Assembly: GCA_005116955.1 (NCBI GenBank)
Contig: SWDI01000001.1
Location: forward strand, 842,999-879,579
Direction of reading: 5' to 3'
From: Nitrospira sp.
GTDB taxonomy: Bacteria; Nitrospirota; Nitrospiria; Nitrospirales; Nitrospiraceae
DNA: 36,581 bases
A program made the translations under genes and the position numbers. Shown here piece after piece: positions 1 to 8,762 of the stretch. The notes beneath the pieces are model-generated. The model searched no databases and was not told where the DNA came from. It worked only from the letters and a program-made list of their open reading frames with translations. Numbering within the stretch: the stretch's first letter is position 1; the number at the start of each line of letters is the position of its first letter.

Positions 1-231
1 CGACACGGCAAAGAACACGGCGTTGGCCAGAATGTTAAACCGCCACAGCCCCATCCACACCGAGTCGAACTCCGGCGTCATGGAGTCCAGGCCGTGCGAG
101 TACCCAAACGTCCGCTGGTACAGCACCCAAAACACTCCGATTCCCAGCATCCCCAACCACCCGAGCTTCACCGGCTTCGAATCGTACCACTGCGAGATGT
201 CATATCCTCGCCCTGAACTGTCTGCAGCCAT
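1..231 (-). CDS. amoC: Ammonia monooxygenase subunit C, N-terminal part (runs off left edge)
   Basis: The 77 visible codons encode the N-terminus of an AmoC/PmoC-family membrane subunit of copper-dependent ammonia monooxygenase, which oxidises ammonia to hydroxylamine. Visible family marks are YDISQWYDSKPVKLGW, then a first membrane helix, then QRTFGYSHGLDSM and EFDSVWMGLWR. The start is set by GGAGG about eight bases upstream of the ATG. amoA and amoB would be expected beyond the window edge, but that is inference. The residue pattern fits comammox Nitrospira better than betaproteobacterial ammonia oxidisers, judged from memory and not by alignment. A separate promoter candidate lies in the 375-base gap before copD. 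Confidence 0.9.
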   Translation of the reverse strand, partial: MAADSSGRGYDISQWYDSKPVKLGWLGMLGIGVFWVLYQRTFGYSHGLDSMTPEFDSVWMGLWRFNILANAVFFAVS

Positions 232-606: not shown

Positions 607-2622
607 TCAATGGACGTGATCACCGGGGGGAGGCAAGATCTCTCGCTCCTGATTGAGCTGTGTGATCTGTTGTGTCAAAAGGCTCATGTCTGTCCAGCTT
701 GGTCCATCTCCATGAGGAATCCATCGAGCTCGTAGGTATCCGAATCGATCGAAGAGAAACTCCATGTGACTCTGGCGAGTGCCCTCGCCGAACAAGTCAG
801 GAATCGAGAGTGTTCGGCGGAACAGCGCATAACTGCGGGAGATCTCTCGTCCGCCTTGAGTGATGACAGGGAACGGCATCCCCTGTGCGATTGAGGTCAG
901 CTCATCCGGAGGAAGGTCGGTCATTGGGACTGCCATGATAGCCGTGCCAGTTGTGGTAATCACGGTCGAAGCCGTACGAAGTTGATCAAGCCGAACACGC
1001 GACTCCGGCCAGGAGAACAACACGAGCAGTAGGTTTTGTTTTCCGCGGAAGTCTTTCAAGGTGCCGCTTGAACCATCGTGCGCCGTATACGAAAAGTTCG
1101 GGGTGGCCATAAACGGCTGCTCAGGCAGAATACGGGGCGTGATGATTCGGGATTGATACCCTCGGGAATTGGCATGGAGAAAGTTAAGGAGATCCCAGCG
1201 CTCTTCTTCTGAAAATTTCTCACCGAAGGCCGGCATGACACCGTTGAATCGTCCGTAGGTCAGCCAATGGAAGAAGTCGCCCGCCGTGTGCATGGCGGTA
1301 TGAGGCTCCGTCAGCAGGTCGACGGGTTGTTTCGGCAGCGTCTTAGCCAATACCCCATTCCCTTTAGCCTGTGGGCCATGGCAGGGAATGCAATTCTCCG
1401 TGAATAGCTCGACGCCATTGGCAATCGAGATGGCATCGAACGGAACCGGGGTCTTTCGATACGTCTCCGGGTAGGATTGTATCGCGATGGGATAGAATGT
1501 CGCACCAAGTCCGAGGATCCCCAGCAGGGTTGGAACAGCGATGCGCCACGAGGTTGCCCACTGTTTTTTACGGCTGAGTACAATGGTCGTTCCAGCTATG
1601 ATCAAGAGTACAAGGCCAGTTAGCACAATGGCCCTTACAAGCCAGTCGTCCCATGTTGCGTCGATAGAGAAGCGGAATGGGTAGGGCCAGTTATCGATGA
1701 CCTCATGTTTAGCCGGGACCGCATTGGCCAGTAAGGTCGCGACGATGACCAGGAGAATGGCGAGGCCAAACTCGACTGTTACCCATGTCCGAAGTTTTTG
1801 CCCACTTGCTGCGGCTTGCTCGGAGCGTTGCCGAATCGATGGTATCCAAAGAGACTTTGCTCGTGAGGCGATGGAAAGAATGACGGCAAGTAACGTGAGC
1901 TTTGTGATGAGCAGCCAGCCATACGCTGTCGCGACCAGTCCGGCGTAATTGGTCTCAAACATGCGATTGGCCACGACGAGGCCTGATACGACAACAACGA
2001 TCATTGTGATGAAGGCCAATCTCGAGAAGCGAGCCAGCACGTCACCGATATGGGATCTTTCGTCAGCTGATCCGGTCGCGATGGTGGAGGCAATAAGAAT
2101 TACGCCCGGGAGACCGCCGAACCAAACGCTAGCTACGATAAGATGTAGGGCATAGATCACGGTGGCCAAGACCGCTTGCTCTTCGGCCGCCGAATGGCTA
2201 GCGAGAGAACCGAGGGCCAGGGGCAGCGCCGCCGCTGATGCACCTGTGACGTAGCGCCATTGCGCAGCAGGAGCAACCTGTATGTACAGAACGATCACAA
2301 GGACAGCAAGGGCACTCGCAGCGCGTAGGGTCCAGATAAACCCGATACGAGTCTTCTGGATAAAGTCCACCCAGGCTTGCGGGTTCCAGGCATTCTCAGA
2401 GGATCCGGTAGCCTGCGCGGTCGTCGTAGCTAAGAGACCGACTAGGCCGATCAGTAGGAGGGTGGCCAACCAAGGAAAAGTCTTTTTCAGACGAGCCAGC
2501 CACGAATGCCCTGATTCGAGGCTCTTCGGCTCGGCGATTGCTAAAAAAACGCAACCCCCGATCAGCATCATGTTGGACGCGAGTTGCAGACAGCGAAGCA
2601 GCGTACCGACGGCCTCGATCAT
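607..2622 (-). CDS. copD: CopD-type copper membrane protein fused to cytochrome c and a redoxin-like domain
   Basis: A 671-residue fusion. Residues 1 to about 385 are a multi-helix CopD domain, the inner-membrane partner of CopC in copper handling. Residues about 395-490 form a class I cytochrome c with heme motif CIPCH at 411-415 and a likely axial Met at MPAF (463). Residues about 505-660 resemble a thioredoxin-fold SCO/AhpC-like domain, but the expected cysteine site reads SWPES, with no Cys. CopD proteins usually contain only the membrane part. The start overlaps the copC stop by four bases (ATGA), so the two are translationally coupled. It is the last gene of the amoE-amoD-amoD-copC-copD run and was probably recruited to supply copper for ammonia monooxygenase. 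Confidence 0.85.
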   Translation of the reverse strand: MIEAVGTLLRCLQLASNMMLIGGCVFLAIAEPKSLESGHSWLARLKKTFPWLATLLLIGLVGLLATTTAQATGSSENAWNPQAWVDFIQKTRIGFIWTLRAASALAVLVIVLYIQVAPAAQWRYVTGASAAALPLALGSLASHSAAEEQAVLATVIYALHLIVASVWFGGLPGVILIASTIATGSADERSHIGDVLARFSRLAFITMIVVVVSGLVVANRMFETNYAGLVATAYGWLLITKLTLLAVILSIASRAKSLWIPSIRQRSEQAAASGQKLRTWVTVEFGLAILLVIVATLLANAVPAKHEVIDNWPYPFRFSIDATWDDWLVRAIVLTGLVLLIIAGTTIVLSRKKQWATSWRIAVPTLLGILGLGATFYPIAIQSYPETYRKTPVPFDAISIANGVELFTENCIPCHGPQAKGNGVLAKTLPKQPVDLLTEPHTAMHTAGDFFHWLTYGRFNGVMPAFGEKFSEEERWDLLNFLHANSRGYQSRIITPRILPEQPFMATPNFSYTAHDGSSGTLKDFRGKQNLLLVLFSWPESRVRLDQLRTASTVITTTGTAIMAVPMTDLPPDELTSIAQGMPFPVITQGGREISRSYALFRRTLSIPDLFGEGTRQSHMEFLFDRFGYLRARWIPHGDGPSWTDMSLLTQQITQLNQEREILPPPGDHVH

Positions 2623-3020
2623 TTCCTTTGAGTGTCGCCCTTTACGGTGAAGTCGAAGGTAGACTCAACCACATGGCCGTCGACCGAGAGGACACGGAAC
2701 TTGACGGAGTACTTACCGGGAACCAGCTCGGGAAGGGGCAGCACGATCGATTTCTGGTCATCCGGTGCAAGCGTGGGCTTGGCATCAGTGATTGGCTGTT
2801 TTTGGGCATCGAGGACCACGAGCGAGGCGTAGTCTCCTTCAATTTTCTCGTTGAACCACAGTCGCACTTGTGTTGGTGACTTGGTAAGCACGGATCGGCG
2901 TGGAGGCTCGGCCTTGACTAACATGGAATGCGCCAAAACCGAGGTTACGGGTGCTGCCAAGATGAGCATGATAACCAAGATGAAGCGCTTGAACATATTC
3001 ATGCCTGCTGGGCCGACCAT
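2619..3020 (-). CDS. copC: Periplasmic copper-binding protein CopC
   Basis: 133 residues with a signal peptide ending at VLA; the mature protein begins with His (AHSMLVKAEP), the usual N-terminal Cu(II) ligand of CopC. A second typical ligand region is VDGHVVEST near the C-terminus. The fold is the small CopC beta-barrel. The first ATG is preferred because TAAGGAG lies six bases upstream; an internal ATG six codons later is possible. It hands copper to CopD, whose gene it overlaps by four bases. The context beside amoC and amoED suggests a role in loading ammonia monooxygenase with copper, which is inferred from position. Confidence 0.9.
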   Translation of the reverse strand: MVGPAGMNMFKRFILVIMLILAAPVTSVLAHSMLVKAEPPRRSVLTKSPTQVRLWFNEKIEGDYASLVVLDAQKQPITDAKPTLAPDDQKSIVLPLPELVPGKYSVKFRVLSVDGHVVESTFDFTVKGDTQRK

Positions 3021-3101: not shown

Positions 3102-3686
3102 CTACGATACCCGGACCCGTGATGGTTTGCGAGGATCTCGGAAGGCGAAGAACACGGCAACGACAATGCCTACGAAGACCGGCACAATAACCATCATGTA
3201 GTGCGAGAGATGAGAGATGATGCCTTGTTCACCGACCGAAAAAGAAAATCGTGCGACATGTTCGCGACTTTGACCTATTGAAACCAACCCGACGAACTTT
3301 CCAGGTGTATCGAAGTTGTATTTCACGTCGATTGATCCAGTGGAGTAGACCTTGGAGGGGAGGTGTGCGATTGTTACTGCTTCGAGATTATCCTCCGAGC
3401 CGGTGTCTTTTATAATCCTCACTTCTACCGGGATAGAGCGGAGCTCCTGTTCGACATAATCGAGCACTAAAACGGTGTTCCCCACCGCCGGAAGCTCCTG
3501 GCAGAATTTCCGATCGTAGTACATGTCAGGCAGGTAGCTTGCAAAAAGCATCTTATAGGGTCCAGCGTGGAGGACGCATGTATCTGCTGCCAATTCATGC
3601 CCATGTTGGGCCATCGCCGAATAAGGCGCGACGACCAAAAGGAACACACAACACACCCAAGCACGGATGAGAAGATGACCGAACAT
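3102..3686 (-). CDS. amoD: AmoD-like membrane-anchored copper protein (second amoD copy)
   Basis: 194 residues from an ATG preceded by GAGGG; an upstream in-frame ATG at 3719 lacks a ribosome-binding site. The layout is signal peptide, extracytoplasmic domain, one C-terminal helix (about residues 160-180) and a short basic tail. The family pattern is Cys37, then PYKM with Met46, a Y-x-P motif and Cys62 in KFCQELP. PmoD, the methanotroph relative, binds copper through Cys and Met residues, so a copper chaperone or assembly role for ammonia monooxygenase is likely. It is closely similar to the neighbouring copy at 3749-4333 (shared EVRIIKDTG and PGKFVG segments), pointing to tandem duplication. 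Confidence 0.75.
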   Translation of the reverse strand: MFGHLLIRAWVCCVFLLVVAPYSAMAQHGHELAADTCVLHAGPYKMLFASYLPDMYYDRKFCQELPAVGNTVLVLDYVEQELRSIPVEVRIIKDTGSEDNLEAVTIAHLPSKVYSTGSIDVKYNFDTPGKFVGLVSIGQSREHVARFSFSVGEQGIISHLSHYMMVIVPVFVGIVVAVFFAFRDPRKPSRVRVS

Positions 3687-3748
3687 GTTCAACCCTCGTT
3701 TCTCTCTAATTCTCAGCATTCAAAACAGTTTCGCTATGGTCTAAATCA

Positions 3749-4333
3749 TTAGGACGCTACGGGTTGCGACGGCTTGCGGTCTCTCATGAAAAACACAATT
3801 CCTAGGACAATGAGAAGCGCAGCCACAGGAAACATATAGATATTTAAGAATTTGGTATAGAACTTCGGCTCTCCCACTGAAAATGGAAACTTGGAGACAT
3901 GCTCTTTCTTGTCGCCCACGGTGACGATGCCGACAAATTTCCCGGGCTTGTCAAAGGTATAGGCAAAGTCGATAGAACCATTGGGATACACTTTGGCCGG
4001 AAGGTTAAACACGGTGTTGGCCTCAAGATTCTCTTCTGTGCCGGTGTCTTTGATGATCCGAACTTCGGCAGGGAGGGTGCGAAGCTCTTGCTCGATGTAA
4101 TCCAGCACGACAATTGTTTGGCCGACCGCTGGGATATCCTCACAGAATTGTTTTTGTTGAGTGTTTTCAGGCTGATATCCACTGAAGTGCATCGTGTAGG
4201 GGCCGATTGTGAGCTTGCACATGTCCTCGGCCATAGAGAGCCCACCGTGAGCATGGACCTGCGAGGCTAAGAGAGCGCTCAGAATAACTACCGCACATCC
4301 AACTGTCAGTTTCAACAATACGAAAGACTTCAT
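3749..4333 (-). CDS. amoD: AmoD-like membrane-anchored copper protein (first amoD copy)
   Basis: 194 residues starting at the ATG preceded by AGAGGA; the longer reading from 4384 has no ribosome-binding site. It has a signal peptide ending in VHA, an N-terminal His (AHGGLS), Cys39, the PYTMHF motif with Met48 and His49, Cys64 in QFCEDIP, and a C-terminal helix followed by RDRKPS. Topology and motifs match its two neighbours, so the three form a paralogous set. By analogy with PmoD it probably binds copper on the outer face of the inner membrane and helps assemble or protect ammonia monooxygenase. Direct copper binding is inferred. Confidence 0.75.
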   Translation of the reverse strand: MKSFVLLKLTVGCAVVILSALLASQVHAHGGLSMAEDMCKLTIGPYTMHFSGYQPENTQQKQFCEDIPAVGQTIVVLDYIEQELRTLPAEVRIIKDTGTEENLEANTVFNLPAKVYPNGSIDFAYTFDKPGKFVGIVTVGDKKEHVSKFPFSVGEPKFYTKFLNIYMFPVAALLIVLGIVFFMRDRKPSQPVAS

Positions 4334-4399
4334 GAACGTGTCCTCTTTTTTGCAATGGTGAAGAGAATGCTCAGATACTGACATGCGTCGTCCGGTTGC

Positions 4400-4987
4400 T
4401 CATGAGCGACGGCGTGATGCAAACCATCCCCGCACTCGACCCGATTTCGAGAGCTCATATCCGACAACCCCGAGTACCAGCAGCAATGCCAATGGTCCAA
4501 GAGCTGCGCGTCCAAGCTTTGAATAGTCCGCCTGCTGCACTCGCAGCAGGTAGGTGGAAGGGCTGAGCCCTTCCGCTGTGATGATCAATTTGTAGAGCCC
4601 CTTTTCCAGCGTGGCTTCACCTCTCACGATCCCGTCAGGGTGAGAAGCCGGCTTCCAATAAGCCACCGTCTTGGCCTCGTCCTGCTCGTTTTCATTGACT
4701 CCTTGAATGATCTTGACCCCTACCGGCATATTGCGCAGGCTCGGGTCGACAAGGTCCAGGACAAGGAATGTATCCCCCACATCTGGGATCTCTGTGCAGT
4801 ACTGAGCCTTCGGCTCAATTTGGGGCTGGTAGGCACTGAAATGCACCATATTCCCACCGATTGTGCGCACACAAATGTCCTCTTCCATCGACACATTCCC
4901 ATGTGCTACGGCGGCAGTAGGGCCGATTACGGTTACGAGGACCAAGGTCAGGAGGGGAAGGCTTATTCGAATCGCACACTTAATCAT
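4400..4987 (-). CDS. amoE: AmoE-like membrane-anchored protein of the ammonia monooxygenase cluster
   Basis: 195 residues. The signal peptide ends at VAH and is followed by NVSMEEDICV (Cys39), NMVHF (Met47, His49), Y-x-P and Cys64 in QYCTEIPDVG, then a C-terminal helix and a basic tail (GWFASRRRS). It shares the Cys/Met-His/Cys frame of the two AmoD-like proteins but diverges from both, which is why I call it AmoE. It is the first gene of the run leading to copD, with 66 bases to the next start. The ribosome-binding site is weak. Upstream lie a promoter candidate and two inverted repeats. The amoE/amoD naming is from family context and could be swapped. Confidence 0.7.
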   Translation of the reverse strand: MIKCAIRISLPLLTLVLVTVIGPTAAVAHGNVSMEEDICVRTIGGNMVHFSAYQPQIEPKAQYCTEIPDVGDTFLVLDLVDPSLRNMPVGVKIIQGVNENEQDEAKTVAYWKPASHPDGIVRGEATLEKGLYKLIITAEGLSPSTYLLRVQQADYSKLGRAALGPLALLLVLGVVGYELSKSGRVRGWFASRRRS

Positions 4988-7025: not shown

Positions 7026-8762
7026 TTAGTGATAGTCCTCGTTCAGTGCCTTCAAGAAAGCCGTGAGTGGAACGATGTCTTGGACTGTGAGGGCAATCCC
7101 TCCCAGCTCACGATCGCCGTTCCGCAAACCACCTGTACGTTGGAGATCCGATACCTCACGGTAGAAATCCACAATCTGGTCAAGTGTGTCGAATTGACCG
7201 TTGTGCATGAAGGGCTCGGAATGTCCAAGGTCTCGAAGGCCGGGTGTCTTGAATCGCGCAATGGCACGATCGAGCAGAGTTGCATCCGGTAGTGGACAGG
7301 GCTGTTGATCGTCGCAGAGAATCGCACGGATCTTTGGCTGAGGTGCCGGCATGTCCGGATTGGCGAAGACGTTCCACAGGCCCAGGTCGGTCAATGTTGT
7401 GCCGGCAGCCGGAACGGCTCGGAATCGCTCGCTGGCCTGCGGGTGTTGTTCAGTAGCCGGCAGATCAGCGGCAGCTCGTGCCGTGAGTGTGGGAATAGTC
7501 AAATTCCTGAAGGCCCCATCACCATGACCAGGAATCTCATCATATTCCTTCTGTGTCGTCCCCGTATTGTGGGCCTTGAAATCGGTGAAGCTCGGCGCGG
7601 CATGACAGGCGATACAGTTCCCGATTTTCCCGATCGTCAGTTCAGTCTGTGCAGCAGGCCGCGCCGCCGGTTCCGTCAAGAACATCTTCAATCCAGCTAA
7701 TTCTTGCGCCCCAAACAAGAATGGCTGGGTATGAAATTGGAACTGACCGTCTGTTCTGTTGGGGTTCGAGGTGACAAACTGAAGTGTCTCGGCCGACTCA
7801 TGTGACTTTACGAGTTGCAGAAGACGTCTACTGTAATCGATCGGAGATTCGTTGGCATTGGGCGATTGCGGGAGTCCGTTGATCTCCAGAAAGACATTGA
7901 AGGGAGAGCGGATCGGTGCGCCGCTGTCTTCGGTCTGTGAAAATAGGAGGCCGTTGACGTAGGCGGTAACGACTTTGACGACGGCATCGAACACCTCTTG
8001 GTCGGTCGCGGAGCCGATCGTCTTGCGGAATTCCGAGGTAAGCTGGAATTCCTCTGCTATGGACGCATCAGTTCCCCCGAAAAGCACTCGGAATGGGGTT
8101 CCGTCGAACTCCTTCGCCAGATCTCCGGTGCCGTTGTCGGATCGGACCACGCGAGCGATATGAGCGATGGCCTGGGCGCGTTCTCCTGGCAGCCAGCCGA
8201 AGTTTCTGCCTGTGAAGGTGGCCGCGATCAGTTCTTCCATGGAATTAAATTCGGCATCAAAATGGAACAAGACGCCGCCTGGTCGATCGAGCGCAGCATT
8301 GACGAGAGGGGGTGAATTGCGGACGGCAACAGTTTTGCCGTCCGCTCGGGCCGGGAGGGGACTACGGCGCGCAAAATCAGCATAGGTCCGCATGCCGCCT
8401 CTCGGCGCATCCAGAACATCGTCAACCAAATGACAAGCCCGGCAATTCATGGCGAGCCCCTTGAATGGTCCCGGGGTGATCAGCGCACCCAAGGTTTCGA
8501 CCGTATCGACGACGTTGTCATCGATCTTTGGATCATTCACGTCACCGCCGGTATCCAGGAACACCTTGAAGGCCTGGGCAAATCGCGTTTCCAGAAACAG
8601 CCGTTCGCCGACGGCTTCTTCAGCCCCTGGCGTACCGGTGGCGGTGAGAGGCGGTGGAGTACTCTCACTTCCTGAACAGGCGACGAGTCCAGTGAGAAAT
8701 AGAAGCACAGAAGCGAAGATACGAGCGATTTTCGAATGATGTGGAATCAGGGTCAGATTCAT
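7026..8762 (-). CDS. Di-heme cytochrome c peroxidase/MauG-family lipoprotein
   Basis: 578 residues. The N-terminus has a lipoprotein signal with lipobox LVAC (Cys29). Two covalent heme sites are visible: CRACH at 107-111 and CIACH at 383-387. FKTPGLRDLGHSEPFMHNG near the C-terminus is typical of the CcpA/MauG superfamily, which reduces peroxide or carries out oxidative protein chemistry in the periplasm. It is longer than classical CcpA (about 340 residues), with inserted segments before each heme, so the substrate is uncertain. It is transcribed leftward; its leader contains three strong hairpins and its downstream side a small Cys-rich gene. It could protect against peroxide or pass electrons. 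Confidence 0.8.
   Translation of the reverse strand: MNLTLIPHHSKIARIFASVLLFLTGLVACSGSESTPPPLTATGTPGAEEAVGERLFLETRFAQAFKVFLDTGGDVNDPKIDDNVVDTVETLGALITPGPFKGLAMNCRACHLVDDVLDAPRGGMRTYADFARRSPLPARADGKTVAVRNSPPLVNAALDRPGGVLFHFDAEFNSMEELIAATFTGRNFGWLPGERAQAIAHIARVVRSDNGTGDLAKEFDGTPFRVLFGGTDASIAEEFQLTSEFRKTIGSATDQEVFDAVVKVVTAYVNGLLFSQTEDSGAPIRSPFNVFLEINGLPQSPNANESPIDYSRRLLQLVKSHESAETLQFVTSNPNRTDGQFQFHTQPFLFGAQELAGLKMFLTEPAARPAAQTELTIGKIGNCIACHAAPSFTDFKAHNTGTTQKEYDEIPGHGDGAFRNLTIPTLTARAAADLPATEQHPQASERFRAVPAAGTTLTDLGLWNVFANPDMPAPQPKIRAILCDDQQPCPLPDATLLDRAIARFKTPGLRDLGHSEPFMHNGQFDTLDQIVDFYREVSDLQRTGGLRNGDRELGGIALTVQDIVPLTAFLKALNEDYH

Follow-up and report, generated by a model that had tools for sequence, protein, structure and literature searches.

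The window, the whole 36,581-nucleotide stretch of Nitrospira DNA that was analysed, contains a gene already known as the copD of the amo cluster. We asked what this gene encodes and what its product might do. The original prediction had read the product as a single protein that joins a CopD membrane module, a heme domain with a CIPCH motif and a redoxin domain. Pfam searches, AlphaFold2 models compared by Foldseek and an alignment of relatives confirmed this architecture, with a redoxin-type fold devoid of cysteine (Table 1). The label copD conceals about 280 residues of other function. In the plus-strand direction the frame over the same positions is interrupted by stops. Relatives were found at 56 distinct loci in genome contigs of Nitrospira, Nitrosomonas, Nitrosospira and a Baikal gammaproteobacterium (L060), the nearest being Nitrospira MAGs judged to be comammox by their amo genes. 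Since 51 of the 56 loci match residues 1-671 in full and one frame runs through 57 aligned sequences (with L044 interrupted by a run of N), a frameshift joining separate genes, which the original prediction had named as a way in which it could fail, is ruled out, as is a misassembly.

Table 1. Features of the fusion gene and its neighbours, with positions in the window.
Feature	Position	Strand	Basis
CopD-cytochrome c-pseudoredoxin fusion, 671 aa	607..2622	-	ORF call, Pfam, relatives in other genomes
CopD membrane domain (residues 1-306) of eight long helices, with conserved His143, His160 and His306	1705..2622	-	Pfam, AlphaFold2, alignment
Residues 307-388, two more membrane helices and a linker	1459..1704	-	AlphaFold2; membrane placement inferred
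Cytochrome c domain, residues 389-490	1153..1458	-	Pfam, similarity to solved cytochrome
Heme motif CIPCH, residues 411-415	1378..1392	-	Cys411, Cys414, His415 in 82/82 aligned proteins
His441, at the position of His83 in cytochrome c552	1300..1302	-	Alignment
Met463, at the position of axial Met103 in cytochrome c552	1234..1236	-	Alignment
Cys-less redoxin-fold domain, residues 500-660	643..1125	-	Family profile, AlphaFold2, fold comparison
SWPES (residues 537-541), close to where redoxins have their active cysteines	1000..1014	-	Alignment, profile
His619, first residue of a modelled strand	766..768	-	AlphaFold2, alignment
C-terminal tail PPPGDHVH with His669 and His671, low model confidence	610..633	-	AlphaFold2, alignment
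copC	2619..3020	-	Pfam, motif/similarity; shares four bases with fusion start
AmoD-like protein, Cx8ML motif	3102..3719	-	Named by similarity and motif
AmoD, Cx8MHxnC motif	3749..4384	-	Motif classes of PMC6189053
AmoE, Cx7MxHxnC motif	4400..4987	-	Motif classes of PMC6189053
amoC start, cut by window edge	1..231	-	Family search

For the comparison of residues we aligned 82 proteins. Of these, 67 are close (the window protein, 55 of the 56 loci found elsewhere and 11 further loci), eight are divergent with the full architecture (L060, L127-L131, L161 and L162) and seven are short paralogs (L091-L097). In the window protein, residues 195-297 match Pfam CopD (PF05425) at 1.4e-19, with 70.8 bits against a curated cut-off of 32.1, and the CopD equivalog model NF033808 reaches 104.2 bits over residues 6-303 against a cut-off of 195. 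The protein therefore lies in the CopD domain family, outside that equivalog. AlphaFold2 predicts ten long helices within residues 1-379, which we read as membrane helices. Every one of the 75 full-architecture proteins has the three CopD histidines, but Met221 is not kept in 8/8 of the divergent ones. In fold, the modelled membrane domain comes close to cytochrome bd subunit I (Z about 22 over 292 residues, rmsd 3.5); despite this fold match, kinship with that subunit was rejected at a profile comparison probability of 1%. A search for a HemJ-type relationship gave nothing above cut-off among 24 relatives.

The heme domain scores above cut-off for Pfam cytochrome c (residues 400-483, 5e-10) and for the CBB3 type (2e-10). 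Both the CxxCH motif and the distal Met463 are in place as predicted, and the domain is a mono-heme class I cytochrome c. Met463 is kept in 67/67 close proteins, 7/8 divergent ones (it is missing in L161) and 7/7 short paralogs; the corresponding counts for His441 are 65/67, 8/8 and 7/7. His452 is replaced by Trp in 7/8 divergent proteins. The closest solved sequence (1e-16) is cytochrome c552 of Thioalkalivibrio paradoxus (PDB 7o9u, 9vr0), whose Cys55, Cys58 and His59 align with Cys411, Cys414 and His415 of the fusion. This c552 accepts electrons in vitro from the copper enzyme thiocyanate dehydrogenase, and modelling routes them to the heme by way of His83 (PMC9456337); copCD genes lie near the thiocyanate dehydrogenase gene cluster (PMC5328954). 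However, c552 is a soluble single-domain acceptor without a CopD fusion, whereas the cytochrome described here is tethered to CopD.

Sequence matches of the single protein to redoxins are weak: Pfam AhpC-TSA covers residues 507-611 at E 0.0045 (17.4 bits, below the cut-off of 26), and Mycobacterium tuberculosis AhpE matches at 4e-4. A family profile gave a better redoxin match of 3.3e-5. In the AlphaFold2 model of the whole protein (33 sequences; mean pLDDT 75.8, pTM 0.56) the redoxin-like domain is visible, with the cytochrome and the linkers at lower confidence. Modelled alone from 32 sequences, the C-terminal domain reached a pLDDT of 82.7 and a pTM of 0.82, which speaks against the other doubt raised at the outset, that this part folds as something other than a redoxin. 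Foldseek matched the isolated domain to redoxins at E about 3e-8, and the fold comparison gave Z scores of 13.2 to 15.1 among the 50 matches listed, including ResA (14.5), AhpE (13.4) and yeast Sco1 (13.5). For the whole model, the first solved Foldseek matches were ResA, a DsbE-like protein and others, followed later by AhpE, with cytochrome c552 at rank 49. As a prediction, the redoxin fold is secure. Its branch within the redoxins is not, as the fold matches do not separate Sco proteins from peroxiredoxins.

The active Cys pair, which the original prediction had read as missing (SWPES), is indeed absent, since residues 500-671 of the window protein hold no cysteine. The redoxin domain likewise lacks cysteine in 66/67 close proteins (the window included) and in 6/8 divergent ones, together 72/75; the exceptions are L008 and L127 with one each and L162 with two. 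None of the 75 full-architecture proteins has a CxxC in this domain. With the cysteines absent, an active thiol redoxin and a Sco chaperone with a CxxxC...H copper site are both ruled out. Thus, although the predicted fold is like that of ResA, AhpE and Sco1, the domain differs from them in having no thiol or Cys-Cys copper chemistry. His619 is kept in 66/67 close proteins (with a gap in L044, cut by N), 7/8 divergent ones (Ile in L131) and 7/7 short paralogs; motif comparison and its location at the start of a strand suggest that it occupies the cis-proline place of redoxins. His669 and His671 are each found in 64/67 close and 8/8 divergent proteins, the exceptions being L008, L044 and L171, of which L171 lacks both. 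In L008 (8001-10055, MAG RSF1) the last residues of the fusion depart from the family sequence and the DHVH tail is missing, possibly through an assembly error.

To compare the domains, we used identity to the window protein in 73 full-length relatives (excluding the window itself, L044 and the short paralogs). The redoxin domain is above CopD in 69/73, and the cytochrome is at or above the redoxin domain in 72/73; in L127, for example, identity is 28% for CopD, 51% for the cytochrome and 41% for the redoxin domain. The better conservation of the redoxin domain over CopD indicates that the Cys-less domain is under constraint and that decay does not account for its lack of cysteines. The short paralogs begin inside CopD, half of which is lost, and retain both the cytochrome and the redoxin domain. 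Six of them have an intact end (L091-L096): here His669 is Tyr or Phe, His671 is kept in two, and a Met/His-rich tail is added, while N letters interrupt L097, whose end carries no meaning. Near the short paralogs, L092 has amoC, and the other six fetched stretches hold none of the searched context genes. Across 20 loci, distances between the fusions correlate with those of AmoA and AmoB (rho 0.90 and 0.92; 0/999 permutations). Because CopC and AmoD give like correlations (0.94 and 0.92), this says no more than shared descent.

In the window, the fusion is preceded by the overlapping copC, three AmoD/AmoE-like genes (3102-4987) and a bacterioferritin gene on the opposite strand, and followed by amoC. 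The amoA and amoB genes lie beyond the window, past a stretch with runs of N. Between amoC and amoA/amoB (L004 4167-11281, same genome) we found other genes, the N runs and a peptidase-like stretch that occurs twice; the N runs and this duplication make the assembly of the amo cluster doubtful there. The third AmoD-like protein (3102-3719) has Cx8ML where AmoD has Cx8MH. Its best matches in loci L005-L060 (n = 45) have MH in 3 cases, another residue in 35 and no motif in 7, which marks it as a paralog that has lost a copper ligand. A gene for a MauG/MbnH-like protein (7026-8762, minus strand; 578 aa), with two CxxCH motifs and scores below the cut-offs of its models, lies close to the amoD/copC cluster both in the window and in several relatives. 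Elsewhere in the same genome there is one other match to the pseudo-redoxin profile, a weak one (2.2e-4).

The same architecture next to amo in other genomes, which had been suggested as a check, was searched for and found. The flanking DNA of the 56 loci carries copC in 56/56 and an amoD/amoE gene in 51/56, with amoA, amoB or amoC in 23/56, where many contigs end nearby. We then counted the fusion against PF04744, a marker for the monooxygenase B gene, with kinship among genomes ignored. Among 175 Nitrospiraceae genomes the fusion and PF04744 each occur in 69: 59 have both, 10 the fusion alone and 10 PF04744 alone (partial fusion matches included; G064, G086 and G110, with a short paralog only, and G109, with a fragment, excluded). 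The full architecture occurs in 14 of 300 Burkholderiales genomes and PF04744 in 9, all 9 within the 14. Of the five without PF04744, one has copC beside the fusion (L149, G266) and two have amoD and copC (L152 in G314, L119 in G426); the short stretches around the fusion in G456 and G396 have neither. In the class of L060 (369 genomes) the full architecture occurs in G180, G693, G823 and G197, all with PF04744; the fetched stretch of G823 has copC and no CuMMO gene. At four distant loci (L148, L150, L151 and L199) CuMMO genes, amoD, copC and the fusion are clustered. The link to the monooxygenase is therefore strongly supported, and by genomic linkage across lineages the fusion is an accessory of CuMMO operons. 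Among viral contigs, 18 stretches matched a pattern and none encodes a relative; among plasmids, 7 records had a match and none covered 80%.

The gene order of copC and copD in comammox was described in 2015 (PMC4863621). In beta-AOB, alpha-MOB and comammox Nitrospira, the amo/pmo operons contain a copD (PMC6189053, PMC4863621, PMC5960693) that is the same gene; it shares its place with the fusion, after amoD/E and copC and before amoC in comammox. In the accessible parts of these papers copD is treated as a copper uptake or resistance gene, without mention of a cytochrome or redoxin domain, and in the literature at hand, which included few subscription papers, we found no mention of either domain on an amo-linked CopD. 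None of it describes the three domains together, the redoxin without cysteine or the tail with its histidines. New as well are the conservation of cytochrome and pseudo-redoxin above CopD, the retention of His619 and DHVH and the alignment of His441 with His83 of c552. A comparable design is Bacillus subtilis YcnJ (CopC-CopD-YtkA; PMC13344008, PMC12362106), which also combines CopD with an extra-membrane domain and supports copper enzymes, namely copper oxidases, with one CopD histidine required (PMC13344008). However, the CopD of YcnJ is fused to YtkA and CopC, whereas here the cytochrome c and redoxin are fused and CopC is separate. A Burkholderia cytochrome c-redoxin-like protein (L116, L117 and L153, three plasmid records) matches residues 312-660 or so at 22-23% identity; it has membrane helices, the cytochrome motif, a GWLRAR stretch and a similar C-terminal domain, without CopD in frame, and its neighbours were read as ABC-transporter genes.

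Since other bacteria with this copper enzyme family have the design too, the fusion probably helps to supply copper monooxygenases with copper or electrons. That copper redox state and electron transfer are coupled while the enzyme is assembled, as originally proposed, is plausible given a CopD beside CopC, a c552-like cytochrome and a Cys-less redoxin with conserved histidines. More specifically, the reading that we prefer, and to which we give an even chance, is an accessory membrane protein of AMO and its relatives that acts as a redox-coupled copper-delivery factor. Periplasmic CopC would pass Cu(II) to CopD at a periplasm-side site formed by His143, His160 and His306. The tethered cytochrome would then exchange an electron, in one direction or the other, with the copper of CopD or of a partner via His441, setting its oxidation state. 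The Cys-less redoxin, its thiol chemistry lost, may use His619 and the DHVH tail to hold or present copper. It may instead dock on the client, for which AmoD/AmoE or AMO itself are the likeliest candidates.

This delivery reading is favoured by several precedents taken together, namely c552 with thiocyanate dehydrogenase, the copCD genes near it, YcnJ, and PmoD, which forms a CuA site (PMC6189053). It is further supported by the constant presence of copC, the frequent amoD/amoE, the 9/9 Burkholderiales genomes with PF04744 and the four complete clusters, and by the conservation of His619, His669 and His671 together with the Met/His-rich tail of the six short paralogs. Against it stand the Ile in place of His619 in L131, the loss of the tail histidines in L171 and of Met463 in L161, and the fold matches that leave Sco and peroxiredoxin undistinguished. 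Co-occurrence is also imperfect, with the fusion lacking PF04744 in 5/14 Burkholderiales and 10/69 Nitrospiraceae genomes and the reverse in 10/69. Moreover, the short paralogs, 6/7 of them without an amo gene nearby, keep the cytochrome and redoxin, so that a wider role is possible.

The heme motif common to all 82 aligned proteins, the cytochrome as the best conserved of the three domains and the electron exchange of the related c552 with a copper enzyme (PMC9456337) would also suit an electron carrier. During turnover, the cytochrome would then draw electrons from the quinol pool or from periplasmic cytochromes and hand them to AMO or AmoD/E, with CopD as anchor and the redoxin for docking. 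We consider this unlikely. It leaves the histidine tail and the pairing with copC unexplained, and CopD made up 0.02-0.03% of protein in Nitrosomonas europaea and Nitrosospira multiformis and went undetected in Nitrosomonas ureae (PMC5960693), a low amount for a protein that would serve the main catabolic enzyme as electron carrier, although those CopD proteins may not be fusions. To plain copper uptake by CopCD, in which the extra domains would be passengers or would regulate import, we give a similarly small chance. The CopD score above the Pfam cut-off and the reading of comammox copCD as copper uptake (PMC13374858) agree with it, but the supposed passengers outconserve CopD, and the short paralogs retain them with half of CopD lost. 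The redoxin could finally be purely structural, docking AmoD/E, AMO or heme maturation without copper of its own, as its conservation despite the loss of the catalytic cysteines would allow. This seems improbable, since the near-invariant histidines at the extreme C-terminus, swapped for a Met/His-rich tail in the paralogs, resemble metal ligands.

The copper-delivery reading can be carried one step further. CopC, the fusion and a CuA-like AmoD/E might together form an unrecognised, dedicated metallation machine of the CuMMOs of ammonia oxidisers and some relatives, in which a redoxin fold has exchanged its thiol chemistry for a histidine copper site and the tethered heme adjusts the oxidation state of the copper that is to be delivered. 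We put this forward tentatively, as a proposal with perhaps one chance in three. Isolated pMMO falls short of the activity of whole cells, a gap that points to missing components (PMC6189053). Residues C411/C414, H441, H619, H669 and H671 are named positions at which metallation and electron supply can be tested. A conserved copper-handling and heme protein lies beside the genes of the enzyme, in Nitrospira and Proteobacteria alike.
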